A stretch of DNA of 50,952 bases, taken from Gracilariopsis chorda. Taxonomy: Eukaryota; Rhodophyta; Florideophyceae; Gracilariales; Gracilariaceae. This document shows positions 2,765-50,952 of this stretch, piece after piece; positions within the stretch are counted from its first letter, which is position 1; the number at the start of each line of letters is the position of its first letter. A program made the translations under genes and the position numbers. Under the pieces are notes generated by a model. The model was not told the DNA's origin and ran no database searches. It saw only the letters and a program-made list of their open reading frames with translations. The stretch spans positions 1 to 50,952 of the forward strand of contig NBIV01000369.1 in NCBI GenBank assembly GCA_003194525.1, read 5' to 3'.

Positions 2765-2769
2765 CCAAC

Positions 2770-4661: not shown

Positions 4662-4694
4662 GAAGGTACCAGGTGGATTCTGCTTCGATGATGA

Positions 4695-5589: not shown

Positions 5590-5773
5590 AAATGAGATGT
5601 AGATGCAGTCGAGGTTACCGCGCGGCGTCGTCAAAATGTGTGGGAATGACAGATACGTCAGGTACTACGTCCTCCTTCACATCTTCGACGACCCTTTCAA
5701 AGACTGCTGACTCTCTCTACGTCCCAATCTCCTTCCCGGACCGCTCTCGTGTACTGTTCTATTGATTTGAGCA

Positions 5774-32209: not shown

Positions 32210-33051
32210 TGTGGTGCAATGCCCCAAAGGGGAAAAGCACCGAAAGATCTGCGGGATCTTCCTCTCACGAGGTGAACCCAGTTGAGTAGAGCCCTCCCAG
32301 AGGTGTCACGTCGAAGCCGGTTTGTAAGACCAGGGACGCCTGTCGCGACTTGCGCAGGGATGTGAAGGCGAAGAATCAGTGTCCGCGTGAGCGGGTGTGG
32401 TTCTCAGTAGAGGTATGTTTCCACGTAAGTGGGGATGTGTGAGCCGGTGTACACAGGAGGGCCACGGGTAGCGGGATGTACTACCCTGAAAGGGGGAAAG
32501 GAGGAGAGTGAAGGCAAAGGAGGAAGAGTGGGCGAGGGTGAGTCGCGAGAGCGACGAACAAATACGGCAATGCCGGTGGACAGGACTCCCTATACAGGGC
32601 GAAACACCAATGTGATTGGAACAATTATACTCCCAAGGATGGGTCTCTTTAGGTGTGCAAGGGAGTTAGAGGTCCCGTGGTTGGCGGCGTTTCTCTCCAA
32701 GGAGGAGTTGAGAACGCGCGGAAGCGGCAACAACTAGAGCCAATTTCCCAGGGTCGGGGTCCCTTGTTGGGGAAGGTTTACTGGTGCGACGGCAGTGCAC
32801 CGTCGCACTAAGTACTAACTTCCCAGAAATGGGTGTAAAAATAAAAAATACAACTAACTAAAATTATGAGAAATACTCCACATTTCGTGGCAACATCCAC
32901 TACTGTGGCCAACCGCCAATTGGCCCAAAACCGTGTCCCACGTGTCCATATCCACCATAGTGGGGCGTAGTTCATATACACACTACACAACCGATAATAT
33001 CGGGAAAACAATCAAGTACTAGGAATCCCTCCCTGAGGGCGTTGCACTTCA
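32210..33051 (-). repeat. Gypsy-2 3' LTR
   Basis: 842 bp, TGTGGTGCAATG...GCACTTCA on the plus strand, homologous to 42833-43663 (831 bp). A plus-strand open frame of 102 codons (32429-32737) is shared by both LTRs but not by the diverged solo LTR and is not called a gene. Mini-hairpins include 32261-32272, 32383-32394, 32421-32432, 32588-32599 and 32784-32808. Since the antisense gene starts 57 bp beyond its inner end, this LTR is the likely source of its promoter. Confidence 0.95.
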
Positions 33052-33053
33052 TA

Positions 33054-33063
33054 TCCCCCTCCT
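33054..33063 (-). other. Gypsy-2 polypurine tract
   Basis: Plus-strand CCCCCTCCT, minus-strand AGGAGGGGG, two bases inside the 3' LTR. It is the expected plus-strand primer. Confidence 0.8.
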
Positions 33064-33107
33064 GAGACGGGAAAACACCCGCGGCCGCGGAGGACTCCTA
33101 GAAGAAA

Positions 33108-34181
33108 ATGGGTGACAAAAGCGCGTGCGCCGTCTCCGGTTCTCCGGTAAATTCTTCTGCATCAGAGTCACTAGCCCCTGATATTGCAGCCGTTGTTTCC
33201 TCACCCCGCTTTCGCACCTCCTCGTCACCGAACGCACCAAAACAACCAACAACAACCACCCTCCAAGAGGGAGAAATGAGTGACGACAACGACATCAACA
33301 ACCGTCAACCACCGAGGTCTCTCGGACGATACACCACCGGTTTCCGGTCAGTTCCCCTGCCTCAGGGCGTTCAACCTCCGGTACAACCGGGAAATGTGTC
33401 AGTTACGACCAACCATCCCTTCGCACTACCACCTTCGGTGGGGTCTTCCGGAACGGCTCCGGTGATGAACTGGCCGACTTATAACACCCTGGTGGGGCTC
33501 AACCCGATGAATCGGAATCACGCGTCACACTTGCGCCTTGCTCCGTGGTTTCACCCGGTCGCTGTCCTCAATGAGGGGTTGGTCACCGCTTACGCGGATG
33601 GCTCAGACACCCTTCCGGGGGATTTGCCCAGGGCAGTCACCACCTCGTGGGATTGGCGTCACCGGATCGCGATTCCGCGTCACCACCTCCGAAGGAATTC
33701 GGGCGAGTCCGTCGCTGCGGCGCAGACCGCATTGGCGCGGATGGCATACCAACGGCAAAGCGCTCCCTTCGATGTACCGGTCCCTCCGGAGTTTGGCTTC
33801 GACGTTAGCCACTTCCGCACTCGCGGGGAGATTGGGTACGGCGAGAACCTGTTTCGCCTCGAGACCCTCGGTTGGAGGAATTTTCCCGCAGCGCGGCAGG
33901 AAGCCTTTTGTTGGGAGCGGCCGATTATTCGGGCGGAGTTCCGCTATCTTTCCCGGCAATACCGGTCAAACTTCCACCAGAACGTCATCCGCTATGAGCG
34001 GCGCTGGCGATCCCGATTCGGGTATTTCATTCCGTACCAGAACGTGGAGATAGAGCGGATTGCGGCGCCTCACCGACCAGGTCTGTATGTAGCACTCCCC
34101 GAGTGGTGGCGCTTCCATGAAGCCTGCTGGGGGTGCTACATGAACTCCCGCCAGTACTTACGTACCTCGGTTCGCTGCTAA
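33108..34181 (+). CDS. Gypsy-2 antisense accessory gene, N-terminal part
   Basis: 357 codons from a true ATG, on the strand opposite to gag-pol, between the polypurine tract and pol. I do not recognise the family. The first ~90 residues are Ser/Pro/Thr-rich and look disordered; the remainder is compact and aromatic-rich, with many Trp/Tyr/Arg residues (WFHPVAVLNEG, SWDWRHRIAIPRHHLRR, YRSNFHQNVIRYERRWRSRFGYF). The composition suits nucleic-acid binding or a structural protein, but nothing decisive is seen. After the stop, homologous-looking coding continues in another frame (34184-34947), so the gene was longer. Expression would start in the neighbouring LTR. Confidence 0.65.
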   Translation: MGDKSACAVSGSPVNSSASESLAPDIAAVVSSPRFRTSSSPNAPKQPTTTTLQEGEMSDDNDINNRQPPRSLGRYTTGFRSVPLPQGVQPPVQPGNVSVTTNHPFALPPSVGSSGTAPVMNWPTYNTLVGLNPMNRNHASHLRLAPWFHPVAVLNEGLVTAYADGSDTLPGDLPRAVTTSWDWRHRIAIPRHHLRRNSGESVAAAQTALARMAYQRQSAPFDVPVPPEFGFDVSHFRTRGEIGYGENLFRLETLGWRNFPAARQEAFCWERPIIRAEFRYLSRQYRSNFHQNVIRYERRWRSRFGYFIPYQNVEIERIAAPHRPGLYVALPEWWRFHEACWGCYMNSRQYLRTSVRC

Positions 34182-34183
34182 TG

Positions 34184-34947
34184 CAGGATCCTCGGTCGGG
34201 TTTGTGGTACGTAGTGATTAAGGAGTGGGTGGCCTGCACTGCGGCTTATATCCTCAACGAGGTGTACGACCAGTATCGTCTCTGATTCGTTCAACAGCGT
34301 GTGCGGGCAGCGATCCGAACTCTGGATCTTCGCATCCCCCTTGGGGGCCAGGCCAACAATGAAGAGGTCCTCCAATTACTTGGGTACATCGACAGCGTTA
34401 GATGGGGTGAGGTCCCGCTGGAGCAAAGCGGTCGTATGGATGGCGGCAGTGGTAACACCGGTGGTCCGGGACTGGGTAGAAACACCGCCCTTGCGGGGAC
34501 TTTTGTCTACTTCGACCCCTGAGAGTTCCGGGAATTTCCTCCGAGGAGGCGCGCGAACTCCGCGATAAACCCCGGCATGTGCCGGAAAACCACCCCATGG
34601 GGTACGTCGATTCTGACCACTACTACCGCGCATATGGCGGGGATGACCCAATGGTCGATACTGAACCGGAAGAACGCGGGGAGATAGGCGTAGAGGATAC
34701 CGGCGCTAGCACGGAAGCTTCCCCAGAGAGGGTACCTCCAGGCGAGCCGGCTGCTGAGCCTTCGGCGGCAAGTGCCGGACCTTCTATCCCCAGCGGGGTG
34801 ACGGCGAATGAAAACGAGATCATCGCACGTTTTCTCCGGGGTGCCGGTCTGAGCGCTGCCGAGGTATCGGGGGATGTCACCGCTATGGCGGGTGCGTTGG
34901 CCTACCGCCTCGCTGGTGGTTACGCCCCGGACGATGGGGGTGAGTGA
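34184..34947 (+). pseudogene. Gypsy-2 antisense accessory gene, frameshifted C-terminal part
   Basis: In frame 34184 the product runs LWYVVIKEWVACTAAYILNE, crosses a TGA near 34274, continues through FVQQRVRAAIRTLDLRIPLGG to a TGA near 34520, and after another shift continues as an acidic, Pro/Ala-rich tail (34579-34947, including YYRAYGGDDPMVDTEPEERG). The pieces follow one another without gaps, as expected for one gene of roughly 600 codons that has taken frameshifts and stops. Short introns are an alternative but none fits well. Confidence 0.55.
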
Positions 34948-35033
34948 AACCTCTAGTCCAGTTCCCTGGTTCTTCTTTCCTGGCATAGCCAGCTAGTGTA
35001 GTATAGTGTTGTGGGGAGCTAGCTGCTCCTTTT

Positions 35034-35039
35034 AATAAA
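35034..35039 (+). terminator. AATAAA polyadenylation-type signal for the antisense gene
   Basis: AATAAA occurs 87 bp after the antisense stop (34947) and just before the pol stop (35138). It fits the end of an independent plus-strand transcription unit. A hexamer is short, so chance is possible. Confidence 0.45.
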
Positions 35040-35137
35040 CTTTCCCGTTTAGAACGGTGATTCTCGTTTCAGTTCCCCGTCTTCGACGGACCTTGCCTTT
35101 TTATCCTTTCCTATCGCCCTCCGCTCGCGCGGCAACG

Positions 35138-36618
35138 TTACCCAACTTGGGCAATTACCAGCGTGGCTGGAGCTGCAGTTCCCGTTTGACGGTGGTATCG
35201 TACGACCTGCGACCGTGGGAGGTGTTCGATTGGCTCCCACGTATGCCCACTGGGGTCATACCCGTACCAGCGGACGCGGTATTGTAGAATACCATCCTGG
35301 TCCCAGGTGTGTCCGACAAGTCGGTCTACTACGAACTCTCGTTCGTAGACCTGCCGGCCGTGCCGGGTGGTCGTTGTATTCTCTTGCGAGGGTTGCCCGC
35401 GGTGCGGTATAAAGTCCCTTAGCAGGGTGTTCGGCGATAACTCCGGCGTTGCCGTGCACTGTGGTAGCGACCGCTGCTCGTGCGGGAGGATATCCCTCAA
35501 GAAGGTGTTTGGCGTCATGGTTTTCACCGCCAAGTCATTCCCCATTGGGGCAGGGTCGTTTCCGCTTTCGCGGTATTGCGGGCGAACTGCCAGTCGGCGG
35601 GGAACTTGGGCTCCGCCTTCGCGGTTGAGCTCACGAACCGCGAGTTTGCGGGAAGATGACCGCTCCTGCGGAATCGGCGTTTTCACGATCCCCTGGGGGG
35701 TCCCGTGCGACACGGTGATTGGATGGCAAACCGCCTCCCTGCCAGGCGCACGAGCGCTCTGCACCATACATTCCGGCGATGCCGTGGTGTCCCCGGCTAC
35801 TGACGGCTTGCCTGGGGTTAACTCCGGTACACCGGTATTTTGGTCAAAAGTCCCCTTTGTGGGGTGCCAGGCAGGTGCCGATGACACCCTTATGAGGGGC
35901 CTTGCCGCTAAGTGCGGTGCACCTTCTCCATGAGGAGGGGCAGCGTCAAGTACGACCAGTTTCGAGCGTGCGATGGCGCGCGTTTTTCCCGAGTTCCTCG
36001 GTTCTTCGCCGCAGCGTTGCGGAAGTTGGCGGAAGGTATTCCCCGGAACAGGGGCTTCGATTCCGTCGACGACGGGAGGCGTTTCCGGCGCTTGCGTGCC
36101 AGGGCCTGAAGCTTCGACTGCGGCTTGGCCGCCTTTTTCCCCAAGAGGGGTGTGGGTATTTCCCAGCGTTTGTGGCGATGCGTCCGGGGCTGGATCGGGC
36201 GATTGCATTTCCGCTGCTGCAGTTTCGGGGGAGCTTTTTGTTTTCCCGTGACGGACGGTATAATTGCCGCTTTTGCGGGGCCTGCACGTCTGGTTCCTGT
36301 TGTGCAGCTCTGCCCAAGAACAGGGGATTAGTGTCTTGGGACATACTCCGTGCTCCACGGTCAGTGTTCCGTATGTTACGTGTTTCCCGTTGCGACGGCG
36401 ATATCGTTCCTCGAAAACGGGTGTTCTCCTCCCCCTCCTTAGACGGAGTGGCGTGGTAAGGGATAACCTTCCCCGCCTGCCGGGTGTAAATTCGCGCCAG
36501 GGGGGCGGGCGTGGTAGGGGCGGGTGCTGAGAGGCCCAAATTACCCGGCTGAGCCGGTGAGTCCGACAGGGTAGGTAGGTCTGAGAGTCCCTGGCTGGGG
36601 TGTGGTAGTACCGTAGGC
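35138..36618 (-). pseudogene. Gypsy-2 pol C-terminus: very long linker and chromodomain
   Basis: From the end of integrase (about 36619) a Pro/Ser/Thr/Arg-rich region of about 430 residues, in two frames joined near 36200, leads to a chromodomain: YEREFVVDRLVGHTWDQDG then YRVRWYGYDPSGHTWEP, residues ~340-390 of the last frame. A chromodomain directs integration to histone-marked chromatin. The linker includes a short internal repeat, NTFLRDILPHE and NTLLRDFIPHR, about 75 bp apart. Such a linker is far longer than usual for chromoviruses. Confidence 0.8.
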
Positions 36619-37880
36619 CTAGTTCTCCCGGAGGATTTCGGTGTTGCAGAGTCCGTAGAAACGGGGTTGCCTGGATCCAGGACGAGGGGCAAGGACAACA
36701 CGATCACGGGAAATCCGTTCGTGCGTGTCGCCCATCTCTACCACGACAGTGTCGGTGTTTACGGAGATGACCTTGAATGGTCCATCCGCCACAGGCGAAA
36801 GTTTATGGCGCTTCTCCCGTTCCGGGTTGTAGTACTCCTTCCTGATGAAGACGTAGTTATTCGCCCGAATCTGGGACGGTTTCTCTCGCAAGCGAGTATC
36901 AAAATCCCGCTTGTAGACAGCTTGCGCACGTGCCATTCATTTCCGCGCAGCGGGGACCAGCTTGGAAAGCCATTGCTTCCATTGCTGCCGGTAGATACCC
37001 ACTGATCGGAAATTGTCCAAGGTAGCTTGGTGTCTCAGCGCCACAGGCGGGGGTGTTCTAAATAGAACCAACTCGAATGGCGAAACTCCGGTAGTCCGTT
37101 GTACCTCCGTATTGTACGCGTAGGTTAACGCATCCGCGTACATGTCCCAGTTCTTCGGGTGGTCTGCGAGGTAGGAACGTAACGCCGCGAGTAACGTCCG
37201 GTTAAACCGTTCAACTTGCCCATTACATTGGGGGTGGTAAGTAGTCGTGAACAAGTTCTTGACATCCAGGATGTGACAAACATCCTGGAAGAACTTGCTC
37301 GTGAACTGTTTCCCGTTATCGGAGAGCACCTCCACAGGGGGACCGTAGACGAAAATCCAGTGCGTCACCAGAGCCTGGGCCACCGTGAGAGCGGTTATCC
37401 TCCGAAGAGGGACAGTCCGTACCAGCTTGGAAAAGTTGTCCGTAATGACAAGTAGAAACTTGTTTCCACGTTTCGTGGTGAGTAGTGGTGCGAAAATATC
37501 GATCGCGATAAACTCGAGCAGCGCCCTTGCGGGAATAGTGTCATCTTCTTCGCATTTTTGCGGAGTTTCACGCGATTCTGTGCGCATTCGCTACAAAACC
37601 GGACGGTTGCGTAGCAATCCACCGCCATGGCGGGCCAATAGAAATCCCTTCGGAGGGTTAGGTAGAGTTTCCTCCCACCTTGGTGACCTCCAATGGGGGC
37701 ATAGTGTGATAGATGTAGCACCTGCGACTGCAGGGAATGAGGTACCACAATCTGTGGGCGGGCTTCGAGCTTCCTTACGAGGTAGCCTTTGTCGTTTACT
37801 CCGAAAGGGAGATCTTCACCACCGTTGATACGGGCACGAATCCTTGTACAGAATGGGTCGCCGAATTGTTCTCGGATCAT
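36619..37880 (-). pseudogene. Gypsy-2 integrase, one frameshift
   Basis: The zinc module (HLSHYAPIGGHQGGRKLY ... CSECAQNR) is in the frame ending at 37395. The core is in the next frame from 37587: D30 (FIAIDIFAPL), D90 (LSDNGKQFTS) and E126 (GQVERFNRTL), all three catalytic residues intact. The C-terminal GPF/Y-like region (ADGPFKVISVNTDTVVVEMG) is at about 36740. A single frameshift near 37540 separates the zinc module from the core, and a TGA at 37935 lies upstream. Function: joins the cDNA to the target. Confidence 0.9.
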
Positions 37881-37934
37881 TTCTTCCGGTGATACCGGTA
37901 CAAATTTTCCCAGTAACAGGTTCTCAGATTTATC

Positions 37935-39671
37935 TCACGATGCGAGTAGTTCGTCAAAGTCCGCATCCTCGTCCCAGTTTTCTGGCCCAGCCTCGACGGC
38001 ACATTCTGGATCATCCGGGTCTATGGCCATGAAACATGGGAATTCATCATCCTCCGTTGGGAGTGCTTCCCCACTTGTGGGTAAACGCGACAGGGCGTCG
38101 GCTTGGGTGTTCTGCGCGCCCTTTTTATAAATGACTTGAAAGTCATATTCCGCGAGGCGGAGTCTCCAGCGCATGAGGCCTCCCGACGGGTCGGAGATAT
38201 TCATTAACCAACTCAATCAGGCATTATCCGTGTACACGGTGAATTGAACTCCCATAAGGTAGGAGCGCAGAGTGTTCATCGCCCATTCGACGGCGAGGCA
38301 CTCTTTCTCCGATACGGAGTAGTACCGCTCATGAACATTGAGCGAGCGTGAACAATAACCAATTGGGTGTCGTTCCCCCTCGAGGGTGGTTTGAAAAAGA
38401 GCACACCCGACTTTGTAGTCGCTCGAATCCGTATCTACGGAGTATGGCAACCCAAGTTTTGGGAGATGTGGGATTGGTGCTGATGTGAAAGCCTCCTTCA
38501 AGGAGTTAAAGGCTTCCGATTGCTCGGGCGTAAATGTTCCCAGTTTTGGGGGGTTCTCCTTTCGCAACAACGCCTTCAGGGGCGCTCCAGTATCCGAAAA
38601 GTCCGGGATAAACCGTCGATAGACGTTGACCATCCCCAAAAAGGAGCACAGTTCCGTTTGAGTACGGGGCTCTTTCGCCTCAACGAGGGATTTGACTCGA
38701 GCTTTCTCGATCGCTAACCGTCCAGGACGGATAATGTGACCCAGATACTTCACAGTATCTGTGAAAAACTCGCATTTCCTCAACTTGAGGGTAATTCCCG
38801 CATCGCGGAGTACGGTCAGCACGTCTCGGACGTGAGTGAGATGGTCGTCCAACGAGTTGGAGAAGATGATAATATCATCAAGGTAGACCAGACAAATCCG
38901 CCACTTAAAGCGGTTGAGTAGAATATCTACTGCACGCCGAAAGGTGGCGGGGGCGTTGGTTTACCCAAATGGCATCCACTTGAAACGGTACGTTCCTGCG
39001 TGGCAGGTGAATGCAGTTTTGTCGCGATCCTCGTGTTTGAGAGGTACTTGCCAACATCCCCAATTGGCATCGAAAGCCTTGAAAACGGTGGCGTCTCCGA
39101 GGGAGTCAATACACTCGTCCATACGAGGGATAGGGTACGTGTCCCTAACAGTAACGGCATTGAGCCGGCGGTAGTCGACACAGAACCTCCAGGTTCTGTC
39201 GGCCTTCAAAGCCAGTACAACTGGAGATGCCCAGGGTGATTGAGTGGGCTCAATCACACCTGCAAGGAGCATCTTGTCCACTTGGGACTGCTCCTCTTCC
39301 CGAGCTTTCGGAACTGCCCTGTAAGGGGGTTGTGCAACCGGTCGCGCACCGGGGAATAAATCGGTCCGGTGTTCCGTTGCATTACTCTCGCCAAGCGAGC
39401 CATCCCACATTGTGGTGAATTCCCGTAATTGTACGGAGTTTGTCGCGGTGCGACTCTGGCACGTGGCTGAAGTCCAGTGCTTCAAGTGCCTTTTCCGGAT
39501 CAATCCCGTCGTTGCTCGATGGAGCATTGTCCTGTGGAACAGGTATGGTTCGCAATTCCGAGTTACTCGGTCTGTTCGACGCTGAAGTAGCGGTTTCCTC
39601 CCCCTCCTTAGACTTGACGTCTTCAGACGGCGGGGCAAACTCGTCAGAAGAGGTGGTAACTCCGAGTACAT
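37935..39671 (-). pseudogene. Gypsy-2 reverse transcriptase and RNase H
   Basis: RT begins near 39420 after a frameshift (PGARPVAQPPYRAVPKAREEE). It includes VDYRRLNAVTVRDTYPIPR, a TAA in the PFG(L)TNAPATF motif at about 38959, the catalytic LVYLDDIIIFS (about 38875) and YLGHIIRPGRL. RNase H follows (VDTSDYKVG type start, YSVSEKECLAVEWA, FTVYTDNA) with TGA codons at 38217 and 37935. All frames agree except for the shift near 39430. The protein is clearly that of a Ty3/gypsy chromovirus-like element, inactivated by three in-frame stops. Confidence 0.9.
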
Positions 39672-40622
39672 CGGCGGCTGTCATCTTCGTTGGCAGCATT
39701 CCCATAGGATGTGGACACTCCCAATTACTTGGTGTTTTACCAAATACTGGGGGTGTTTGCCAAGGTTGGCAACCAATATCCGGAAAGGAACATCCGGGGA
39801 AATGGAGACAATTCCATTAGCCAGCGCCAGCTGGGATTTCTCGTACAACGAGGCGAGGGGTTGTATAACCCGAAGACCGTGTTGACGGGAATTTACCTGC
39901 ACCCAGACTTGGGACTCAGGTGGTATAGAAACCGAGGCAGCGACGCGGAGCTTAGTGGACTCGCGGGACGCGGGCGGTGGTTCCTGCGCAGCAGGGAGCG
40001 GAACTTGTTTCCGAGAGTACCGCTTTAGTGGGCAGCGAACAATCGGAACCGACGATTCGTCGTCAACTTCTACACGCCTGAGGCGGGGCCTGATTGCGTC
40101 GACAAATCTGTCGCAGTAATCACATCCCAGTATAACTGGTGCTGCCAATGAACGGCAAACGATGAATTCCAACTTCACCACAGAGGTACCAAGTCTCACG
40201 ACGAGGTCCACTGTGACCACCGTTTGTGACGGATTGTTGTTCGCATCCGAAATGTCGGGGACCGCGTCAGAGTGGATACGAGACCGCACAAGTGGTGGTG
40301 ACAATGATTCCACAACAATGTTGGGGCCTGCACCTGTATCCAGGACGGTGAGAAACCTCATCATAAACTGGGGATCAAGGACAAGGTCGGCATAGGCCTT
40401 ATAGTTGCGCTTGGCCAAGACCAAGACTCTACCGGGAATCCGGGGATTTTTACTCCGTATCCACGGGCGACGCAACACACCGAGGTGCGCAGAGTCCGCG
40501 TCAGCGGTGTCTTTCGTCGAGAGGACTTTCACCGGCAAGCGAGGCGAGGACGCCTCGGGTGCCAACAGCCTCTTGTCTGAGGACGCCTCTCCCAAAGGGG
40601 AGACTCCCTCAGTTAGTTTTCC
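39672..40622 (-). pseudogene. Gypsy-2 protease
   Basis: The pol frame starts in the -1 frame relative to gag. The aspartic protease active site LDTGAGPNIV is at about 40335, and the flap/exit motif APVILGCDYCDRFVD at about 40120. The frame ends at a TGA (39681), but the neighbouring frame carries the continuation (LPTKMTAADVLGV...), so a small indel near 39715 is followed by a compensating one near 39430. The enzyme cleaves the Gag-Pol polyprotein. Confidence 0.85.
40577..40622 (-). promoter_or_regulatory. Gypsy-2 gag-pol -1 frameshift signal
   Basis: Minus strand: the last two gag codons form G-GAA-AAC (40616-40622), a slippery heptamer of the relaxed lentivirus-like type, directly before the gag TAA (40613-40615). 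A two-tier stem follows: CTGAGG (40607-40612) pairs with CCTCAG (40577-40582), and inside it TCTCCC (40598-40603) pairs with GGGAGA (40588-40593) around a CTTT loop. Slipping back one base enters the protease frame. The spacer of 3 nt is short. The stem may also simply be one of the many mini-hairpins of this element. Confidence 0.6.
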
Positions 40623-42727
40623 GCCTTCGGCGGTGGGTTGGTTTCCTCGACAAAGAGAGCTTCATCCCGTTGACGGGGGTTTGTATCCCCATAAGCGGGG
40701 GTTGCAACGGATGGTTGCGCGATCTCCCGAATCGGGGTGTATGAAGCTTGCCACGCACGCGGGGTCTGTGGTAGGGCATGGGGAAATTCCGTTTTAGCAC
40801 GGAGGTAGGAAGCCGTCGGGACGGAACGTTTCTCCTCTGGAGTGAGGGTCTCGTAGTTTGCCACCACCTTGGCCACATCCTTCAGTGAGCAGATACAATG
40901 AGGCGAGGTATGACCATGGGAATAACAAAGGTGGCCAATGAGGGCCAACACCGCGACACGCGGATTATTATTCCGAGTATCGGAGAAACGAACCACAGGG
41001 CGGGTGTCAGTCCATCCAGGCCGTTGATAACGGGGTTGACCGTTTGAAAACTGGAATCGTTGGGGTTGGACCCGACCGTTACCACCGTATAGAACGGGAT
41101 CTTCTGTTCCCGTATCACGGGTCATCTCCGTCGTTGACGGTAAGCCACTGGTGGGTATCGACCCACCATCCCCCTGCACTAAATGCATCGTATCAAATCC
41201 CTGTCCAGGGTTCCCATCCGCAGTGAGCGGGAGTGAGGAAGCTTCGCTTTCCAGCAACAAAGCCTTGGTGGATTTCATCCGATTGTTCGGGGTTCTTGCC
41301 CGACGTGCATCCCCTTCCGCTCGAGCTTGTTGGACCAGCTCTAGGTAGGTGATCCTCCGCTTATCCTCACGATAACGGGTAACTAAACTCCGGACTACCG
41401 GGTCAAGACCATCGATGAACATTGTGCAGCGCTCCCCAACGGGGTATACATTACCACATCTGTGGAAAGCCTTGTTAAGGCGCACCGAGTAATTGGTCTC
41501 GGTCTCTCCAGCGCGCTGGCGTGTATCTCGCAAAGCGAGGATAGCCTGCTGAATAGCGGTGTTTGTGGCGTAGGAGCGCAGTACATACTGCACAGCCTCC
41601 GGCAAACATGTAACTCCTCCGTCGAAGGCGCGAGATGATCCTCTGACAGAGATGTATTGGTCCTCCACCACCCCCCGTAAGAAATATGGTAAAGCCAAAT
41701 AGGCTTGTCTCTCATTCATACCAAGGATATCGGCCTCCGCTACAAAGCGGGATAAGAAATCCAGTCTAAAATACTGGTTGCGGAGCGAGAGCTGCATTCG
41801 CTTAATGCAGTCTCGCACCTTTCCCGTACCACGGGGCGTACGTCCAAGTTACGAATCTTCGAGTCGGTAGTGCCGGTATGACAAAAGATTCCGGTAATCC
41901 GGGTTTGTCGGTTTCAATTCCCGGAGACCGGGGTGTCTTCTCCCCTTTCGGCGGGCGCGGATCACACCTTCGGTGGCCGATGACCGCTTTGGGCGGGAGG
42001 GGTAGCCTCGCTTATCGTCCTCAGAGTCGGAGTCCGAGGAGCTCGGGCTATTCGAAGGATTTCGGGATGAATCCGAAGATGTCGAAGAGTCCGAGTCCGA
42101 GTATTTTCGGTGGTGTTTCCGCTTATGACTGCGTTTCTTTTTCCCAGCATATTGGTGATTTCGAGACGCAGTCGGTACCGGATCATCCGGGGATGGTTTT
42201 TGCATGAGAAAGAACTGCTCCAGTATCTCCAAGCAAGCACCAATCCGATCAAATCGAGACTCAACTCCTTCGATGAAGGTGGCGGGTTGCTCCAAACTCT
42301 CCAAAACGGAGTTGACATCAGACCGTAAGATACGGAGGTCCTCGGCAACCTCTTTCACAGGGGATGCCATAACCACCTCTTGGAGGGATTTCAATTCCCA
42401 TACAAGGGTGTTGTGGGCGGTCTACAGTGCGCAGACCTGGGAATCCAGGGATGTCCCCTGGGGGGTGTTGTCGACCGTTCCACGGGAGTTTGATACCGCG
42501 ACTGCGGGAGTCGATGCATCATTCCCCTGCGGGGGTTACAACGACGGCAAAACAGTGTTCCGGGGTTCCTGGGGTTGGTTTGAATTCCTCGAAGAGGGTC
42601 CACTAGCGAAGCTGGAGCCGGTCCGCTTCGTAATGCGGGATATGAACCGAACTTCGGGGACTTCTCCACCATCGTGGGAACGACTGCGGGTGACCGCACG
42701 CTCCGCATCCGAGGGTTGCCCCGACAT
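40613..42727 (-). pseudogene. gag: Gypsy-2 Gag
   Basis: Gag starts at 42727 with MSGQPSDAERAVTRSRS, matching the Gypsy-4 start MSRRPSSAEPAVTRSRS. One frame runs to 40613 with in-frame stops at about 42536 and 41849 (the latter TAA where Gypsy-4 has TCA). An Asp/Ser-rich linker with SSDSDSEDD and a basic patch (KKRSHKRKHHRK) leads to the capsid-like region (41818 leftward), including LDFLSRFVAEADILGMNERQAYLALPYFLRG and ETNYSVRLNKAFHRCG. A Cys/His cluster (CYSHGHTSPHC) near 40925 may be a degenerate zinc knuckle. It packages the element RNA. Confidence 0.88.
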
Positions 42728-42807
42728 GAAGAGCTACCGTCACGACGGAAACAATTCCGCAACTTCCGGGAAGTGGAAGATGAACCTCGAAAGAGGGAAA
42801 ACAAACA

Positions 42808-42829
42808 CCGATTCTAAGTCACGAGACCA
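42808..42829 (-). other. Gypsy-2 primer-binding site
   Basis: Three bases inside the 5' LTR the minus strand reads TGGTCTCGTGACTTAG and on. The same place in Gypsy-4 reads TGGTCTCCCGACCTAG. The Gypsy-4 version is the complement of a tRNA 3' end of the form ...CTAGG-TCGGGAG-A-CCA, a good T-stem and acceptor stem. The Gypsy-2 copy has three differences. Confidence 0.75.
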
Positions 42830-42832
42830 CTT

Positions 42833-43663
42833 TGTGGTGCAATGACCCAAAGGGGAAAACACCGAAAGACGTTCGGGATCTTTCTCTCACGAGTTGAACC
42901 CAGTTGGGTAGAGCCCTCCCAGAGGTGTCACGGCGAAGCCGGTTTCTAAGACCAGGAACACCTGTCACGACTTGCGCAGGGAGGTGAAGGCGAAGAATCG
43001 GTATCCGCGTGAGCGGGGTGTGGTTTTCAGTAGAGCTATGTTTCCACGTAAGTGGGGATGTGTAAGCGGGTGCACACAGAACGGCTGCGGGTAGCGGGAT
43101 GTACTACCCTGAAAGGGGGAAAGGAGGAGAGTGAAGGGAAAGGAGGAAGAGTGGGCGAGGCTGAGTCGCGAGAGCGACCAATTAATACGGCAATGCCGGT
43201 GGACAGGACTCCCTATACAGGGCAAAACACCAATGTGATTGGAACAATTATACTCCCAAGGATGGGTCTCTTTAGGTGTGCAAGGGGGTTAGAGGTCCCG
43301 TGGTTCGCGGCGTTTCTCTCCAAGGAGGAGTTGAGAACGCGCGGAAGCGGCAACAACTAGAGCCAATTTCCCAGGTTGGGGTCCCTTGTTGGGGAAGGTT
43401 TACTGGTGCGACGGCAGTGCGCCGTCGCACTAAAAACTAGCTTCCCAGAAATGGGTGTGAAAATAATAAATAAAATCAACTAAAATACTCCACATTTCGT
43501 GGCAACATCCACTACTGTGGCCAACCGCCAATTGGCCCAAAACCGTTTCCTACGTGTCCATATCCACCATAGTGGGGCGTAGTTCATATACACAATACAC
43601 AACCGATAATATCTGGAAAACAATCAAGTACCAGGAATCCCTCCCTGAGGGCGTTGCACTTCA
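42833..43663 (-). repeat. Gypsy-2 5' LTR
   Basis: 831 bp, homologous to 32210-33051, with the outer end against the target duplication TGTTC (43664-43668). Mini-hairpins are in the same places as in the 3' LTR (for example 43005-43016). Confidence 0.95.
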
Positions 43664-43668
43664 TGTTC

Positions 43669-44098
43669 CATAATGTCAATGAATGGTCCGACCATGAAAT
43701 AATATCTTAAGCAAACCTGCATCCGATTCCACATATATTCCGGATAATCGTGAGACTGAACTAGTTTGAAGCCCCAACTTTCAATAGATTTTCCAGCTAC
43801 GACGAAAGATAAAAATTCGTTATCGGGATTTCAAGTGAAGGAATCGATGTTGAGACTCATGCTTGAAGTTGCTGAAATTGTTAACGTTCAGAGCTGTATT
43901 TATCAACGAGAGCAGGTGGTGCTGAGGTGATGATCGTTTGACTATCCACCCATCGATTATCAGTGTCGTCTGTACCTTTATATTGAACGAGGTACTCTAA
44001 CTTGCTCTTATTGACAATATGTTTCAGGACTTGATCGATGCCTTGGCGTTCAGTATTGACAACTTGTTCAGCAGCAGATCTATTTCCGCTATTCGCTT
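43669..44098 (-). pseudogene. Gypsy-3 chromodomain and 3' region
   Basis: Reading leftward from the solo LTR junction, the frame N-S-G-N-R-S-A-A-E-Q-V-V continues into a chromodomain (GIDQVLKHIVNKSKLEYLVQYKGTDD...WVDSQTI), ending at a stop at 43881. Joined across one CGCTT copy it continues the integrase frame exactly (K-K-E-A then N-S-G-N). The 43669-43880 part is noncoding 3' sequence up to the Gypsy-2 insertion. Confidence 0.9.
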
Positions 44099-44895
44099 TG
44101 TAGTGCAATGCCCAGAAGCGGGAGCGCACCGAAAGACGTTCGGGATCTTTCCTCGTTAGAGGTGAGCCCAGTTGGGTAGAGCCCCCCCAGAAGTGGCACG
44201 ACTATGTCGGGTTGCAATGCCGAGGCCAGCTGTCGTGACTTGCGCAGGGAGGTTGAGGCAAGAATCGGGTATCCGCAGCAGCGGTGTATGGGGGTGGTTA
44301 TCCTCGAGAGAGGTGAGGGTTCCACGTTAGTGGCACGCGCGAACACGAGCCGTGGGTAGCGGGGAAGCCACCCTATAAGTGGAAAAATAAGGGGGAGCTG
44401 AGTCACGAGTGTCGTGACGAAGACTAACGGCAGTGCCGGGAAATAAACCTTATACAAGGCGAACACCAAGACAGCTGGAATAACAGTCCAAATACTCGGG
44501 TCCTTTAGATAGGCAAGGGGATTCGACTTCCCGTATGCGACGGTGCTTCCCTCCAAAGAGGAGTAGAGAACACGCGAAGGCGGTGAGGTCTAGAGCCAAT
44601 TCCCCAGGTTGGGGTCCCTTGTTTGGGAAGGTTTACTGGTGTGACGGCAACCCGCCGGCGCACTAAGTACTAACCATCCCAGAAATGGGTGTAAAAACAA
44701 TAAATAGAATTAACTGAATTACTCCACTTCGGTGGTTCATGCCCACTACTGTGGCCAACCGCCAATTGACTCTTCCATGTCCCACGTGCCAAAACCATCA
44801 TTCAGTGGTCGTAATTCATGCAATGAATACATTACCAAAACATTCTGGAAATCAACCAAGTACCAAGAATCCCTCTCTGAGGGCATTGCACTTCA
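44099..44895 (-). repeat. Solo LTR of the Gypsy-2 family, inserted in Gypsy-3
   Basis: 797 bp starting TGTAGTGCAATG and ending GCATTGCACTTCA on the plus strand, diverged from the Gypsy-2 LTRs. It is flanked by perfect CGCTT duplications (44094-44098 and 44896-44900). No internal element sequence is present, so it is a solo LTR left by recombination. It sits exactly between the integrase C-terminus and the chromodomain of Gypsy-3. Confidence 0.95.
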
Positions 44896-46000
44896 CGCTT
44901 CTTTCTTCTCTGCATAAAACGGTTTTAACAATGAGATATGAAATGTGTGTTGTATGTTCTCCATACTCTTTGGAAGTTCGAGTTTGTAGGATCTCCCCTC
45001 CGCAAGAACTTTGATTATGTCAAACGGGCCAATATACCTTGGTGTAAGTTTCCTTGCACGGCCGTGTTTGAGATTTAAGTTCTTGGTAGATAGTAATACT
45101 TGATCTCCTCTCTGAAATGTTCGATTCTCTTGCGTGCCTTTATGAGCGTCAATCATTCTTTTATTTTTGTTTCTGATTGAATTTTGCGCGACTTGGGTTG
45201 CATATTTTATGTTTTCTATAAACTTCTGCGTTGCGTCATTTGATATCTCAACTTCGTCACGATATATGAAGTCTGCTATAGTAACAGGATGTTGGTAATA
45301 CTCTAAGAAGAATGGTGTTTCATTGGTTGCATCATTTATGTTATTACTGTAAGCAAATTCAATACCAGATAGAAATATATCCCAGTCTCTTCGTGTATAA
45401 CTAATGAAGCATTTTAACATTTCCTCATAAGTACAGATCGCTCTTTCAGATTGTCCATCGGTTTGTGGATGAAATGAGGTTGAAAGGTTGAGCTTCACTT
45501 TGAGAATTTGCATAAGTTCCTTCGAAACGCTTCCTGCAAACCTTGGGTCTCTGTCTGAGATGATTTTGCGCGGTAGTCCATGGAGTCGATAAACTTCTTT
45601 ATAAAAGGTCTCGGCTGTATCCTTCGCATTTAGGGTTCGCTTCATTAGAATAAAATTTATGCGCTTTGATAATTTGTCAAAGACGACTAAAATGGAGCTC
45701 ATTCCTTCTTTAGTTTGGGGTAAATCAAATATAAAATTCATTGAAATGATCTCCCATTTCTTACATGGAGGTGGAAAAGGTCTCAATTTTCCATATAACT
45801 TTTAATTCGTACTTTTAGACCTTTGACACTAAAGACAATTCTTAATGTAATTTTTTATATCATCACTCATCTTTGGCCAAAAGAAATCTCGTTTAACTAA
45901 AGAGATTGTTCTTTGAGCTTCTCTATGCGCACCAAGGAGTGATCCGTGATCATCGAAGAGTACTTGTTCTCTCACATTTTCGTGAGGAATTCATAAGCGT
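44896..46000 (-). pseudogene. Gypsy-3 integrase
   Basis: The zinc module (HREAQRTISLVKRDFFWP, then C-x2-C with a stop between) lies at about 45960-45830. The core is open from 45786 for 297 codons: N17 where the first catalytic Asp is expected (ISMNFIFDLP; the family consensus is M-D-F), then D78 (ISDRDPRF) and E114 (TDGQSER). The C-terminal GPFDIIKVLAEGRSYKLELP region follows, ending in LLKPFYAEKK at the solo LTR. The Asp-to-Asn change would abolish strand transfer. Chromodomain follows at 44098. Confidence 0.9.
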
Positions 46001-46294
46001 TCTTCGAGGTATAATCTTCCGTTCTTCCACTGCAATGGTTTCCAGGGATTTCTTGCATAATCGTTAAAGAATTCGTCTTGTTCATACTCGTGGTCTCAAG
46101 TCTACAATATTCTTTCGTTTGTACTTATTGTGGCTACACTGGACAGCTTTCTTATCATGTCTGTTCATAATTCATCTACCTCTTTATGCTTGCGGGACAA
46201 GGCATCAGCAACGTGATTTGCCTTTCCTTTAATATATTTAACATCATACTTAATTTCTTGCATAAATTCCACCCATCTTGCTTTGCTTTCTTGA

Positions 46295-47427
46295 TCAGCT
46301 TTTCTGTGACTCGAGATACTTTAAGGGATGATGATTTGTAAGTATATTGAAATTGGATCCGTGGAGATAGGATCTCCGGGTTTCAAGTGCAAACACTATA
46401 CCCAAGGGTTCCCGTTCATTAGTCGGGTAGCCCTGCTCCGTTGGTGATAATTTACGTGAGGCATAGGCGACAGGCCTACTACCTTTTTCATATGTTTGTG
46501 TAAGTACGGCACCTATCCCTGTCTGTGATGCGTCAGTCGTTAACTCATTTGGTTCATTGGGATGGGCACATCTCAAAATTGGAGCATTACTTAAAGCTTG
46601 TTTGAGTTGCTGGAAGACATTCTGTTCTTTTTTGGACCACTGGAATGTTACTGACTTCTTTGTTAGATCAGTGAGTGGTACGGCTAGTTTTGAGAAATCT
46701 TGTACAAATCTTCTGTAGTAATTACACAAACCTAAAAAGCTTTGGACTTGGGTAACTAAAGTTGATACTTCCCAGTTCCTCATAGCTTCTGTTTTCTTGG
46801 GGTCTACTTTAATACCTTCTGATGTGATTATGTGTCCTAAATATTCGATGGAAGTTCTCATAAATTCACATTTGGAGAGCTTTCCATAAAGCTTATTCTT
46901 TTTAAGTACCTCAAGCGCCTGCTTCATATGTTTAATATGTTCTTCCTTATTCTTACTATAGATAAAAATGTCATCTAGGTATACTAGGATGAAAGAATCT
47001 AGGTAAGGATGGAAGATAATATTCATGTAAGTTTGAAAACATCCAGGAGCACCGGTAAGCCCAAAGAGTGTTACGAGATATTCAAACTGACCATATCTTG
47101 TGCAAAATGCGGTTTTTCTATATCTTCTTCTCTTACTCTGATTTGATTATAACCAGATCAGTCTATTACAGAGAATAGTTTTACGCCACCCACTTGATAC
47201 CATACTTCATCTATTCTTGGGAGTGGTACTTGATTCTTAATTGTTTGCTTGTTAAGTGCTCTATAATCGATGTACATTCTCAGACTCCCATTCTTTTTCT
47301 TTGTAAATAGAACCGGACTTCCCCAAGGACTAATGCTTGGTCTTATGAAACCATGAGCTAGTAAATCATCTAATTGTAACTTCATTTCTTGCAATTCAGA
47401 CATTGATAATTTACATATAGGTCCCAT
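46295..47427 (-). pseudogene. Gypsy-3 reverse transcriptase and RNase H
   Basis: RT starts in the frame 47427-47158 ([42 protein letters not shown]). After a degenerate stretch it continues from 47026 with FILVYLDDIFIYSK (catalytic YLDD intact), KCEFMRTSIEYLGHIIT and FLGLCNYYRRFV. RNase H follows: LTTDASQTGIGAVLTQ, YASRKLSPTEQ and [10 protein letters not shown]. It is a standard Ty3/gypsy arrangement, broken between 47157 and 47026. The remainder to 46001 holds the RNase H end in poor frame. Confidence 0.9.
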
Positions 47428-47539
47428 CTTAGGTTTGCGCCTTCTTCGAGATTCATTCTCATTAAAACTTCTCTATGGGGCGGTAAATCTTTCGGTAGAT
47501 CTTCCAGGAAGATATCTTTATATTTTTTTAATAGCTTCT

Positions 47540-48160
47540 TCAGTTGATATCCACTTTATTTCCGGCTCTCAGCTCGGGAGTACTAGAAAACTCATTATAA
47601 GGCCTTAAACTCTTTTCAGGCTTAGACGGATCTTGGTCTAAATTTACCTGTTCTTCATAAGGCATAGACTTACTCTCGTCTATAATTGCCTTCATAATAA
47701 CATGATATATCATGGATTTACTCTTCCTTACACGTCTTACGAACTGCTTACTGGTAACTAGGAATAAAGGCCGATATGAGACCCCGTACGTTCCAGCCTC
47801 TGCGTCCAGAGTTATTTGCTTTCCTTCGATATTGATTAGCATACGGTTCAATTTCCAATTTATTATTGGAATTATGTCTGAATCCCACAACTTACCTAGT
47901 ATGATGTCATAAGATATCAGATCTACCACATAGGGATTAATTTGGAAGTATGGGTCACCAATTTTTAGAAAAAGCTTTCTAGAACTCACGTTCATAGGAA
48001 CCAGAGTTCCATCCCATAGTTCTGCTTGCAACTTTGACTTTTGAAATTGCAGGTTACACTTTTCTGCAAAGCATTCAGAGATTATAATCTCCTTACATCC
48101 AGTGTCAATGAGAACACTACATTTTTGTGGATTTTTCTTTCAAACTTCTCCCTTGAATAC
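47540..48160 (-). pseudogene. Gypsy-3 protease
   Basis: A retropepsin with its active site at about 48085-48115 (SVLIDTGCKEIIIS) and the second half from 48031 (PYVVDLISYDIILGKLWDSD). The region to 48226, where Gypsy-4 interrupts it, is the start of the protease or the end of gag. It cleaves the polyprotein. The frame is broken near 48035-48040. Confidence 0.8.
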
Positions 48161-48226: not shown

Positions 48227-49127
48227 TGAAGTGCAATCCTCAAGGAGGAAGACTCATCGATGCCCTGTGGACTTGGTGTTTTTGCCGCTTTCGCGTGTTT
48301 ATGATTACTACCTCTATTAGCGGGTGTCTCAGCCCTCAGCGGATCTGCACTGTGCACCAGGTGCACACCTGTGCATGCCCCGTGTGCCGCCCAAGGCGTG
48401 AGTGGACAACGTGTGACACGGATCGTCAGGAGGAGGTTGGCACCACAATGTGGACATTTATTTATTATATATATTTTTATTTATAATTTATCTACGCTAC
48501 AGCAGGGAGATTACTACACTATATAGTGGCTCGGCGACCTCGCCCTGACACTGAGTAAACTTCCCCAACCAGGGTTCTTGGCTCTAAGTCTTTTCCGCTT
48601 TCGCGAGTCTTCTACGCTCCTCGGAGGTAAAGCCGCGTTACTAACGGTAGACCTATCCACCCTGCGTCACTAGGAGTATCACCGCCTTGGGCACTTGTCA
48701 CTTAATTCACCACCGCCATGTTCTCACCCCTGTATAGGATTCCTTGGTACCTTTTTCGTGGTCCCGTTGGCCCACACCCCCGTCGCCCCCAATCGGGCAT
48801 CCCCCGTATTTCCATTACCCCGCTCTCGTGGTTTCTACCCCTTTGTGTGGTTGCTCGTCACCGCTGACGCGTGTCTCTCGTGCCGGTATCCCGTGACGTC
48901 TTCCCCCACTTACGTGGACTCGTACTCCTTGGAAGGGCTGTTTTCCCATTCGTGGTGATCCTAATCCTACCGTTTCAACTCTCCCCGCTTGGCGTGAGGG
49001 TGAGCCTCGGCTTTACAACCCGACTTCGTCGTGCTCATCCGGAGAGCCTCTGTTCGCTTTCTTACCCTCCAGAGGGGAAGATCCGAACGTCTGCGTGTGT
49101 TGTCCCGCTTGCGGGTATTGCACTACA
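48227..49127 (+). repeat. Gypsy-4 5' LTR
   Basis: TGAAGTGCAATCC...GCACTACA ends match the complement of the Gypsy-2 LTR ends (TGAAGTGCAAC...GCACCACA). The interior is strongly diverged from Gypsy-2 but alignable in patches (for example 48585-48640). A TATATATATTTT run at 48466-48479 may serve as TATA box. Partial mini-hairpins such as CCGC-TTTC-GCG are present. Confidence 0.85.
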
Positions 49128-49130
49128 AAG

Positions 49131-49152
49131 TGGTCTCCCGACCTAGAATCGG
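49131..49152 (+). other. Gypsy-4 primer-binding site
   Basis: TGGTCTCCCGACCTAGAATC begins three bases after the LTR. Its complement ends ...CTAGGTCGGGAGACCA, a convincing tRNA T-stem, acceptor stem, discriminator base A and CCA. The tRNA would start CTCCCGA; tRNA-Tyr is one possibility but identity is not settled. Confidence 0.8.
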
Positions 49153-49242
49153 AAACGGTTAGGTTTTGTAGTACCTCTCCTCAGAGATTCACTGTCCAAA
49201 CTTTTGGTTTCTTACCACTTCGTGGGAGTTTTTGGTCTACAC

Positions 49243-50797
49243 ATGTCTCGGCGACCATCCTCCGCCGAACCCGCTGTGACGCGGAGTCGTTCCGTCAGTG
49301 ACATGGAACCGGCAGAGATCTCGAAGGTCCACGCTGGCCACCCTCGACTTGCCACTTTGAAAGGCAAGTCGAAGGGCCAAGACTCGTAGAGAGCCCAGAA
49401 ACCCCTGCCTAAGGCGTTGAAGGACGCTCCCAACTCTGGTGTCGACCCGGCTTCTGCCGATGTAGCTGCGCCCCGGAGGAGAGAACCCGATACCGACGCC
49501 CCGCCTAGTTTCCAAGCGCAGCTTGATGAGGTGCATGAAGCACACAATACCCTCGTAGAGGAGTTTGAAGTCCTGCGTGCCAGGTTTGATACCTCTTTTA
49601 TGAAGGATTTGGCTGAGGACATTCGCCTTTTAAGGGCGGATGTCAACACTGTGTTGGAATGTTTTGGTGGTCCTGCCAACTATGTTGAGAATGTGAAAAC
49701 CCGATTTGATCGTGTCAGTGCCCGTCTGAGGACGTTGGAGCAAACTATCTTGATGGATGACGACGTCCCGGGTGAGGCCACTGCTGTCTCGCAAAAAGCG
49801 AAGCGCGAGAAGAAAGATTCTACCCGCCGCACTCGTAAGACGCAGCCCAAGCACGATCCCGACTCGTCGGATTCCTCCCTGTCTTCACAGGAATCTCACC
49901 ATTCTGATGGTTCGGTGTCGTCGGATTCTTCGTCGGACGATGATCGTCGCCGACGCCCGTCCCATCCTAAACGGTCTTCTTCCACCCAAGGTGTGATTGG
50001 CCCCCGGAGGAAGGGGAGGAAACACTTAGGATTGAGGGAACTCAAATGTACTAATCCCCTCTACAAGAGGTTGGTATCGTACCGATATTATCGGCTTGAC
50101 GACTCCTCATTGGATCGTACACCCCGTGGTACGGGTAAGGTGAAGAACTGCATCAAGCGTATGCAGCTTTCCCTTCGTAACCAGTCCCTTTTCTGGAGAA
50201 GATGCCATATTGGTGTTAGACTTCCTCGGAAGGTTCGTTTCCGAAGCGGACATACTTGGTATGAACGAAGGACAGGCGTTTATTGCCCTACCGTATTTTC
50301 TACGTGGCCTCGCCGAGGATCAATACAACTCTGTAAGAGGTTCTTCCTGAGCCTCCGAAGGAGGTGTAACGTGCTGACCGGAAGCGGTTCAGTACCTCTT
50401 GCGATCCTACGCGACGAACAACGCTATTCAAGCGGCTATTCTCGCTTTACGCGATACCCGCCAGAAATCTGGAGAGACGAAAACCGAATTCTCAGTACGC
50501 CTTAATAAGGTTTTCCACAGGTTTGGCAATGTTTACTCCTCTGGAGAGCACTGCACCATGTACATCGATGGATTGGATCCGGCAATCCGTACGCTGGTGG
50601 CCCGATATCGGGAGGACCGTAGTAACACCACCTACCTGGAGTTGATTCAACACGCGCAAGCGGAAGATGATGCACTTCGAACTCGTATCCGTGCATCGAA
50701 GTCTCTTTCCGCCAAGGCGTTGATGATGGAAGCCAGTTCACCGTCTTTATCACTAGCAGCGAGTGGACGCCCTTCAAGGGACTACGATAACGTGTAA
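49243..50797 (+). pseudogene. gag: Gypsy-4 Gag, with stop and frameshift
   Basis: ATG at 49243 (MSRRPSSAEPAVTRSRS). The frame meets a TAG at 49387-49389 and continues unchanged to about 50195: a coiled-coil-like region (ADVNTVLECFGGPANYVENVKTRFDRV), an Asp/Ser linker and the basic patch RRKGRKHLGLREL. A frameshift near 50195-50200 and further breaks before 50399 move to the frame ending at 50797 (SYATNNAIQAAILALRDTR, GEHCTMYIDGLDPAIRTL). All parts align with Gypsy-2 Gag. The tail after 50797 is probably the rest of gag in another frame. Confidence 0.88.
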
Positions 50798-50952
50798 CTC
50801 GCTCAGACCGGTGCTCATTCTATTCCTACCACGGAACTGCCGTCCACGACGGATGCGTCCTACGACACAGGTCAGGAGAATTCCCTGCTGTATGTTGCCG
50901 GACCCCGTGTTCACGGACCTCGCATTCCCTATGCCAATGGTGCCCTCCGGCA

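Follow-up and report, generated by a model that had tools for sequence, protein, structure and literature searches.

Why should a retrotransposon be filled from end to end with short perfect hairpins, in its long terminal repeats (LTRs) as much as in its genes? The question is raised by a 50,952-nt contig of the red alga Gracilariopsis chorda (NBIV01000369.1, assembly GCA_003194525.1; contig C369 here), which we call the window and which carries the LTR retrotransposon Gypsy-2. An earlier note, made from the letters alone, had described dense short hairpins in this element, with loops mostly of 3-5 nt, and had offered three ideas for their origin: a bead-like folded RNA favoured by selection, a miniature palindrome that proliferated, or template switches of reverse transcriptase that correct palindromes. 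Our results bear out the hairpins, more strongly than claimed. They form an array with its own grammar and pitch, absent from the other elements sampled and weakened in an old copy, and lineages differ by hairpins that carry derived stem changes. Genome-wide counts refer to the whole assembly of 91.3 Mb in 1081 contigs.

Results

Hairpin excess along Gypsy-2

In Gypsy-2, perfect inverted repeats whose loops measure 3-5 nt reach about three times the frequency seen in its dinucleotide shuffles. For 4-bp arms, compared with 40 shuffles, we counted 147 hairpins with loops of 3 nt (expected 49±7; z 14.2), 150 with loops of 4 nt (48±7; z 15.0) and 131 with loops of 5 nt (48±8; z 10.7). The excess is smaller at 6 nt (81 vs 49±6; z 4.9) and slight at 1, 2 and 7 nt (69, 74 and 63; z 2.9, 3.4 and 2.2), and counts equal expectation at 8-12 nt. 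Direct 4-nt repeats, taken as a control, are raised at loops of 5 nt (96 vs 49) and 2 nt (74 vs 50) and at no other length.

One word stands out. CCGC-N4-GCGG is found 15 times in 32210-43663 (mean 0.28 and maximum 2 in 200 dinucleotide shuffles), and 16 times in the whole window, the sixteenth being a solo LTR copy at 44273; the arm-swapped word GCGG-N4-CCGC is found twice in the same interval (mean 0.29, maximum 3). The coordinates listed earlier hold except for one (33586, not 33596), and six copies had been overlooked, at 33079, 33815, 34485, 34880, 35121 and 37622. Reading by eye confirmed the CCGC-N5-GCGG form (35905) and the arms of more than 4 bp that begin at 40540, 41792, 41823 and 40621. 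Among the sister words said to be common, all with N4 loops, CCAC/GTGG (8; mean 0.34, maximum 3) and CCTC/GAGG (4; mean 0.28, maximum 3) are indeed in excess, and CCCC/GGGG (3; mean 0.74, maximum 6) is within chance.

Counting hairpins whose outermost pair is 5΄C:3΄G, we found 243 in Gypsy-2 (18 + 207 + 18 for LTR, interior and LTR), or 233 without overlaps. LTRs and coding DNA have equal densities (21.6 and 21.8 per kb in the LTRs, 21.1 in the interior), and these values, like those of the solo LTR and of a related fragment (Table 1), are far above shuffles. A map by kilobase shows the rate dropping to background at both ends of the element. Neither of the two outcomes that the note had named against its own claim was found: shuffles did not reach the density of the element, and the excess was not shared by the window's copia element (3.0 per kb; 22 vs 21.9 in shuffles) or its low-GC Gypsy element at 44896-48139 (2.5 per kb; 8 vs 5.2±1.9). 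These two and the first part of the window (1-32200; 2.7 per kb, 88 vs 80.8±7.9) all lie within about 1.5 standard deviations of their own shuffles. The excess also persists under synonymous codon shuffling, a control that the note had proposed: in four frames of one copy we counted 64 hairpins vs 12.6±2.7 (gag), 93 vs 18.6±4.2 (pol), 40 vs 11.5±2.8 (a third frame) and 26 vs 6.9±2.2 (an antisense frame), with z values of 9-19 and with hairpin starts in all three codon phases.

Array and array-free elements in the genome

Ten 10-kb slices of the genome were compared, two of them (L039 and L045) picked to contain copies of the element. These two hold 32.6 and 32.1 outer-C hairpins per kb, vs 4.1 and 3.9 with control loops. 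One of the eight others, L041, contains an array element (17.9 vs 2.8 per kb), and the remaining seven, without an array, give 2.3-4.5 vs 2.3-3.4 per kb. In 29 other loci, taken from a search in which 40 of 927 candidates were scored, the density is 30.2-32.1 per kb; the window copy has 23.8, so the array is weaker in this old copy, whose reading frames are broken into pieces. Copies with open frames exist elsewhere. At the loci of other Gypsy reverse transcriptases in this genome, whose top local matches are 32-56% identical as protein, ten slices of 1.5 kb, which may represent fewer than ten families, hold 39 outer-C hairpins in 15 kb vs 30 with control loops.

The orientation of the words is also plain genome-wide: CCGCN4GCGG is found 11428 times, its backward reading 2154 times and the arm-swapped GCGGN4CCGC 1093 times, and CCGTN4ACGG is found 9080 times vs 1419 read backwards. 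The 5-bp word CCCGAN3TCGGG (120 vs 29 reversed) is far rarer than these two 4-bp words.

As a separate observation, other Gypsy elements appear to stand in regular head-to-tail arrays on contigs C573, C883 and C819 (step about 5680 bases) and C509, C225 and C755 (about 6350 bases), which look as if they were tandem LTR retrotransposons.

Grammar of the hairpins

Grammar and spacing were read from copy L045 (9721 nt), which is about 96% like L039, so that the two are not independent. Here, with 40 shuffles, stems of 4 bp with an outer C:G pair number 160 vs 26.6 expected, and stems of 5 bp 87 vs 7.5, whereas 4-bp stems with an outer G:C pair are scarcely raised (29 vs 25.8). Loop and stem are matched: loops of 3 nt go mainly with 5 bp (39 vs 1.0, for stems with one AT pair) and loops of 4 nt with 4 bp (60 vs 4.3). 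Stem length rises with the number of AT pairs, and the loop-closing pair prefers a 5΄ pyrimidine. The 237 non-overlapping hairpins of L045 have a median Turner free energy of -5.0 kcal/mol; enrichment spans about -9 to -2 kcal/mol and is not clear for stronger stems, where numbers are small. Because both stems and loops differ, the proliferation of a miniature palindrome is unsupported: what the hairpins have in common is mainly base pairing and the outer C:G pair. Sense-strand flanks in L045 are rich in A after the stem (41-42% at +1 and +2) and at -4 (40%), and in C at -1 and -2 (about 40%); the A-rich flanks suggest that one strand matters. An attempt to tell the sense strand from G.U vs C.A near-misses was abandoned, as C.A is slightly higher in some copies and G.U in others, with no clear preference.

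Pitch and spacing

The hairpins are not placed at random. In L045 linkers of 0-4 nt number 6 vs 34.6±5.1 under random placement, and linkers of 5-13 nt 93 vs 54.1±5.8. The best period is 21.25 nt (z 7.1, the top of 104 periods). In ten sequences, partly overlapping, and with z taken as the maximum over periods, z exceeds 3 in five: L045, L010 (20.25 nt; 3.6), L005 (20.0; 3.4), L041 (21.5; 4.1) and the window copy (21.75; 5.5). Four more (L002, L007, L008 and the fragment at 48.5 kb) have z of 2.4-2.9 with periods of 20.0-23.0 nt. In the 9721 nt of L045, the 237 recognised hairpins take up about half the places that a full array would offer. In the middle of gaps of 22-36 nt, imperfect 3-bp hairpins are somewhat commoner (24 of 520 placements, vs about 2% elsewhere). 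One of the two longest gaps falls on the catalytic LDD of the reverse transcriptase, located by eye, and the other at and past the end of the integrase core match, as if protein constraint overrode the array locally.

Folding as RNA and as DNA

Over 24 windows of one copy, RNA folds more stably than its shuffles by 11.0% in the sense strand (mean z -2.05) and 9.0% in the antisense strand; DNA parameters give 21.4% (z -2.61) and 18.8% for the two strands. The comparison stretches give 2.2% (copia) and 5.8% (5700-11200) as RNA, and 4.0 and 8.0% with DNA parameters. The usual threshold for genome-scale ordered RNA structure (GORS) is a folding-energy difference of about 8%, and by this measure the sense strand of the Gypsy-2 array belongs to that class. 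Sense folding is slightly above antisense (p 0.13 and 0.11 as RNA, 0.011 and 0.074 as DNA, at 37 and 20 °C). How sharply the two energies separate real from shuffled stems was also tried as a way to tell RNA from DNA, and gave no difference (Kullback-Leibler (KL) divergence 0.129 for DNA, 0.125 for RNA).

Turnover of hairpins between lineages

The copies L010-L038 fall into two subfamilies, A and B. Compared through L010 and L032, they form a mosaic, with a divergence of about 1.2% through most of 3.7 kb and of 22% over 1.37 kb, from about column 2400, as after recombination between elements. In the diverged segment stems differ by 17-19%, linkers by 23% and loops by 29-30%.

A third family, L008, allowed a three-way comparison over about 1 kb, in which 21 hairpins belong to a single lineage, about a third of them possibly by chance, judging from background density. 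Of the 21, 19 have one or more stem substitutions that arose in their own lineage, so these hairpins appear gained and not retained. Derived stem sites number 25 of 183 (mean 1.2 per hairpin), vs a rate of 0.078-0.126 at never-stem sites, and for 11 of the 21 another lineage has a hairpin within 4 nt, where about 5 would be expected at random places. Apparently, then, between lineages 20-25% apart hairpins turn over while their density persists, many through point changes. Such turnover speaks more for selection on structure than for template switching or a decaying relic, although the covariation and polymorphism tests are weak.

Three comparisons were set aside. A polymorphism test with stems defined in one copy gave a pooled p of 0.0024; this definition is biased, so the pooled value of 0.07, from stems of any copy, is taken instead. 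The figure of 8 changes in 649 sites for stems common to both subfamilies is conditional on pairing in both. Arm vs loop divergence (L045 vs L032, for example, differ at 2 of 616 sites in arms and at 12 of 277 in loops) is biased by picking perfect hairpins in one sequence, and we therefore make no claim that individual stems are strongly conserved.

The element and its surroundings

Gypsy-2 is a Ty3/Gypsy LTR retrotransposon, chromovirus-like in its LTR pair, its order of reverse transcriptase, RNase H and integrase, and its chromodomain (Table 1). Its reverse transcriptase has its best protein match in Agarophyton chilense (76% identity), followed by Chondrus crispus (57%); the RVT_1 match of the upstream reverse-transcriptase frame is slightly below the Pfam cut-off. 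The L045 frame that aligns with the gag region contains a zinc knuckle of the form CX2CX4HX4C, read by eye, and this presumed Gag knuckle has the sequence CHLCYAHGHTSPQC; the presumed gag frame has no Pfam match. Towards the 3΄ end of the element, L045 also has a hairpin-rich frame on the antisense strand (8024-8899, minus strand; 292 codons; 26 hairpins vs 6.9 in the synonymous shuffles above), with no Pfam match, which may be a chance frame. A search of Rfam gave nothing at the gathering threshold, and a search of viral contigs gave no relative.

Table 1. Gypsy-2 and related features in the window
Feature	Position	Strand	Basis and remarks
Gypsy-2 LTR retrotransposon with hairpin array	32224..43669	-	LTR pair from direct repeats
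5΄ LTR of Gypsy-2 (right end in window)	42846..43669	-	direct repeats; 18 hairpins, 21.8/kb
3΄ LTR of Gypsy-2 (left end in window)	32224..33057	-	direct repeats; 18 hairpins, 21.6/kb
Gypsy-2 gag region, approximate	40620..42778	-	placed by L045 alignment; open only in pieces
Gypsy-2 reverse transcriptase + RNase H, two frames	38217..39680	-	RVT_1, RT_RNaseH, RT_RNaseH_2
Gypsy-2 integrase (zinc-binding H2C2 + core), two frames	36937..37934	-	Integrase_H2C2, rve
Gypsy-2 C-terminal frame, chromodomain near its end	35138..36703	-	Chromo PF00385, 8.6e-10
Solo LTR of related family	44098..44895	-	18 hairpins, 22.6/kb; density equals Gypsy-2
Fragment of related element, opposite orientation	48500..50952	+	42 hairpins, 17.1/kb; three aligned pieces, 74-84% to Gypsy-2

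Other features lie in the left part of the window. A direct repeat of about 196 nt is present in three copies 470-490 apart at 678-1833, together with a 300-nt repeat 473 apart. Direct repeats at 2770-3203 and 27729-28159, 89-92% alike and 24.96 kb apart, surround most of the left half and are perhaps the ends of a large nested element. An open frame of 1528 codons (5771-10357, plus strand) joins an Ulp1-type protease domain to a MULE transposase domain, and a transposase frame of 424 codons (DDE_Tnp_4) lies at 15960-17234 on the minus strand.

Discussion

The array suggests that the whole genome of this element is shaped as a string of beads, perhaps for packing. We propose, as the likeliest reading, though tentatively and with somewhat less than an even chance of being right, that the single-stranded genome of Gypsy-2 is a hairpin array kept by selection, a nucleoprotein array in which each hairpin would dock the element's own Gag. 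The genome would be written as short self-folding beads of the form C-N3/4-loop(3-5)-N΄3/4-G, about 12.5 nt long; neighbouring beads would mostly lie 5-13 nt apart, for a preferred pitch of around 21 nt at which about half of the places can be recognised. Selection would act on base pairing, so that ordinary point mutations destroy and recreate hairpins at constant density. The minimum linker, the pitch, the narrow bead size and the fixed outer pair suggest protein docking sites: the linker would reflect a footprint, and the fixed size and outer C:G pair would reflect recognition. Each bead would dock a Gag carrying the retroviral-type CCHC knuckle, with about one Gag per hairpin position loaded onto the genome during particle assembly. 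That very strong stems are not enriched would fit the need of ribosome and reverse transcriptase to melt them. A further step, which we regard as possible but doubtful, is that the genome is a hairpin ruler, with one structure-specific docking site per capsid protein and a spacing set by the capsid lattice, laid over the protein code.

A number of observations, together with two features of known systems given at the end, weigh against this proposal. No strong loop motif is apparent, as no base exceeds 38% at any loop position among 705 hairpins whose loops have 3 or 4 nt (drawn, like the near-miss tallies, from ten sequences, some overlapping). GNRA loops, 28 of 345 in a pool with repeated copies, are 11 of 178 vs 5.4 expected without repeats, and since the antisense strand gives the same count they carry no strand signal. 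G.U pairs are not favoured in stems: pooled near-misses are 164 vs 123 for G.U, 217 vs 147 for C.A and 572 vs 518 for others, beside 706 vs 95 for Watson-Crick pairs. The linkers show no optimisation, and in RNA the opposite: shuffling them raises the stem probability from 0.411 to 0.474 (first 5 kb; 125 hairpins, four shuffles), so they have not been adjusted to leave the hairpins free in RNA. Periodicity is absent from one sequence, L001 (z 1.1), and the best period of L008 is 23.0 nt (z 2.7). The mean density in L045 is one recognised hairpin per 41 nt, so that any agreement with about 20 nt per Gag holds for pitch and not for count. Of the 28 hairpins of A and the 26 of B in the 22%-diverged segment, only 13 and 12 are retained in place; pairs changed on both sides re-pair in 2 of 5 and 4 of 8 cases there, and in 24 of 50 over all (overlapping) comparisons, which we estimate as little or no more than chance. 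With the unbiased definition of stems the polymorphism test gives p 0.69 in A and 0.012 in B, besides the pooled value above; the test is only suggestive.

Several of these points speak for other explanations. Single-stranded DNA, either the minus-strand cDNA or both strands, may be where the hairpins act; there they would compact or protect the molecule or organise its coating during reverse transcription. This is unlikely on balance, though it deserves serious attention: pairing is Watson-Crick, with G.U not preferred on either strand, the energy excess is larger with DNA parameters, and the mean stem probability at equilibrium is 0.62 in DNA vs 0.40 in RNA, the RNA value also counting against the Gag proposal. 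The higher DNA probability and the lack of G.U preference make single-stranded DNA, or folding in both strands, a serious possibility. On the other side, both energies separate real from shuffled stems equally, the A-rich flanks suggest that one strand counts, and long single-stranded cDNA is transient. It is likewise unlikely, and slightly more so, that local hairpins in both strands shield the element by preventing long duplexes or small-RNA targeting, in the manner of genome-scale ordered viral RNA structure. The array runs the whole length of the element, its Watson-Crick stems fold in both strands, the RNA energy excess in sense and antisense is above that of the comparison stretches, and a function of this kind has been proposed for GORS in the portion of the literature consulted (PMC9784701); the minimum linker, the preferred pitch and the outer C:G rule are not predicted by it.

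Explanations that dispense with a present function fare worse. A relic, that is, a once full array decaying neutrally in all lineages, is improbable. The retention in place seen in the diverged segment is near the ~36% estimated for neutral decay along one branch, and constraint is not visible in the recent polymorphism of subfamily A; against this, the derived substitutions in 19 of the 21 lineage-specific hairpins make these look gained, and the origin of the full array would stay unexplained. Slightly more improbable is a mutational origin in which template switches of reverse transcriptase copy one arm onto the other and so keep palindromes perfect. The stems are perfect and the process would reach all parts of the element, but the 25 derived stem sites in 21 lineage-specific hairpins amount to about one change each, which speaks, indirectly, against the rewriting of whole arms, and several differing hairpins differ in both arms; nor would switching alone account for pitch, outer C:G pair and stability rule, or for the ten other Gypsy slices without an array. 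An artefact of composition or codon use is extremely improbable, although the element is GC-rich, in view of the dinucleotide and synonymous shuffles, the loop-length controls, the equal density of the non-coding LTRs and the genome-wide asymmetry between CCGCN4GCGG and GCGGN4CCGC. Among the three ideas of the earlier note, selection for a bead-like folded structure is thus the best, with its stability-dependent grammar, its pitch and the apparent gain of hairpins by point mutation; the folded molecule may be RNA or single-stranded DNA, as G.U is not preferred and the hairpins win more easily in DNA folding.

What would selection on Gag-docking hairpins mean? The array is a second code that covers some 10 kb of the retrotransposon, open protein frames among them; it has a preferred period and its grammar is simple and testable. 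The presence of array and array-free Gypsy elements in one genome is a natural experiment. If the hairpins are Gag units, they would offer a direct route to how particles of Ty3/Gypsy elements, and perhaps retroviruses, choose and order their genomes; a hairpin ruler, if true, would be a repeating assembly code set by shape and pitch instead of sequence, possibly read in both DNA and RNA stages. If they shield RNA or cDNA, they would be a new kind of transposon counter-measure.

In searches of the open-access literature, several of them on adjoining topics, we found no report of such a hairpin array in an LTR retrotransposon; most subscription journals and preprints are outside this coverage. 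The Gypsy-2 array resembles GORS in that structure runs along the whole genome, coding and non-coding, and appears as a folding-energy excess over shuffles (11.0%). It differs in being largely one short kind of hairpin, of narrow size, with an outer C:G pair, a pitch of 20-21 nt and Watson-Crick pairing only, in an LTR retrotransposon. Template-switch hairpins would be perfect and short, and predict one-step rewriting of an arm, whereas lineage-specific hairpins of Gypsy-2 have about one derived site each. Dispersed packaging signals share with Gypsy-2 the many stem-loops over the genome; the hairpin density of Gypsy-2 is higher than is known from such systems and its spacing more regular. In the excerpts of PMC6281560 available, the stem-loops of such genomes, e.g. 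MS2, are proposed to be sites of coat-protein assembly, with a common recognition motif (in MS2, in loop and bulge), whereas the loops of Gypsy-2 are varied and share no strong motif.

A further comparison is with Ty3. In the parts of PMC4974528 consulted, the zinc finger of its nucleocapsid (NC) is critical for packaging, and Ty3 can do without nt 429-4979 if its proteins are supplied in trans; this dispensable interior sets Ty3 apart from an element whose interior would be read as docking sites. Gypsy-2 and Ty3 belong to the same superfamily and have one CCHC finger each, and in Ty3 particles about 20 bases of RNA per Gag have been estimated, according to the sections seen of PMC6525542. The pitch of 20-21 nt in Gypsy-2 matches this value, a numerical agreement and not a proof.

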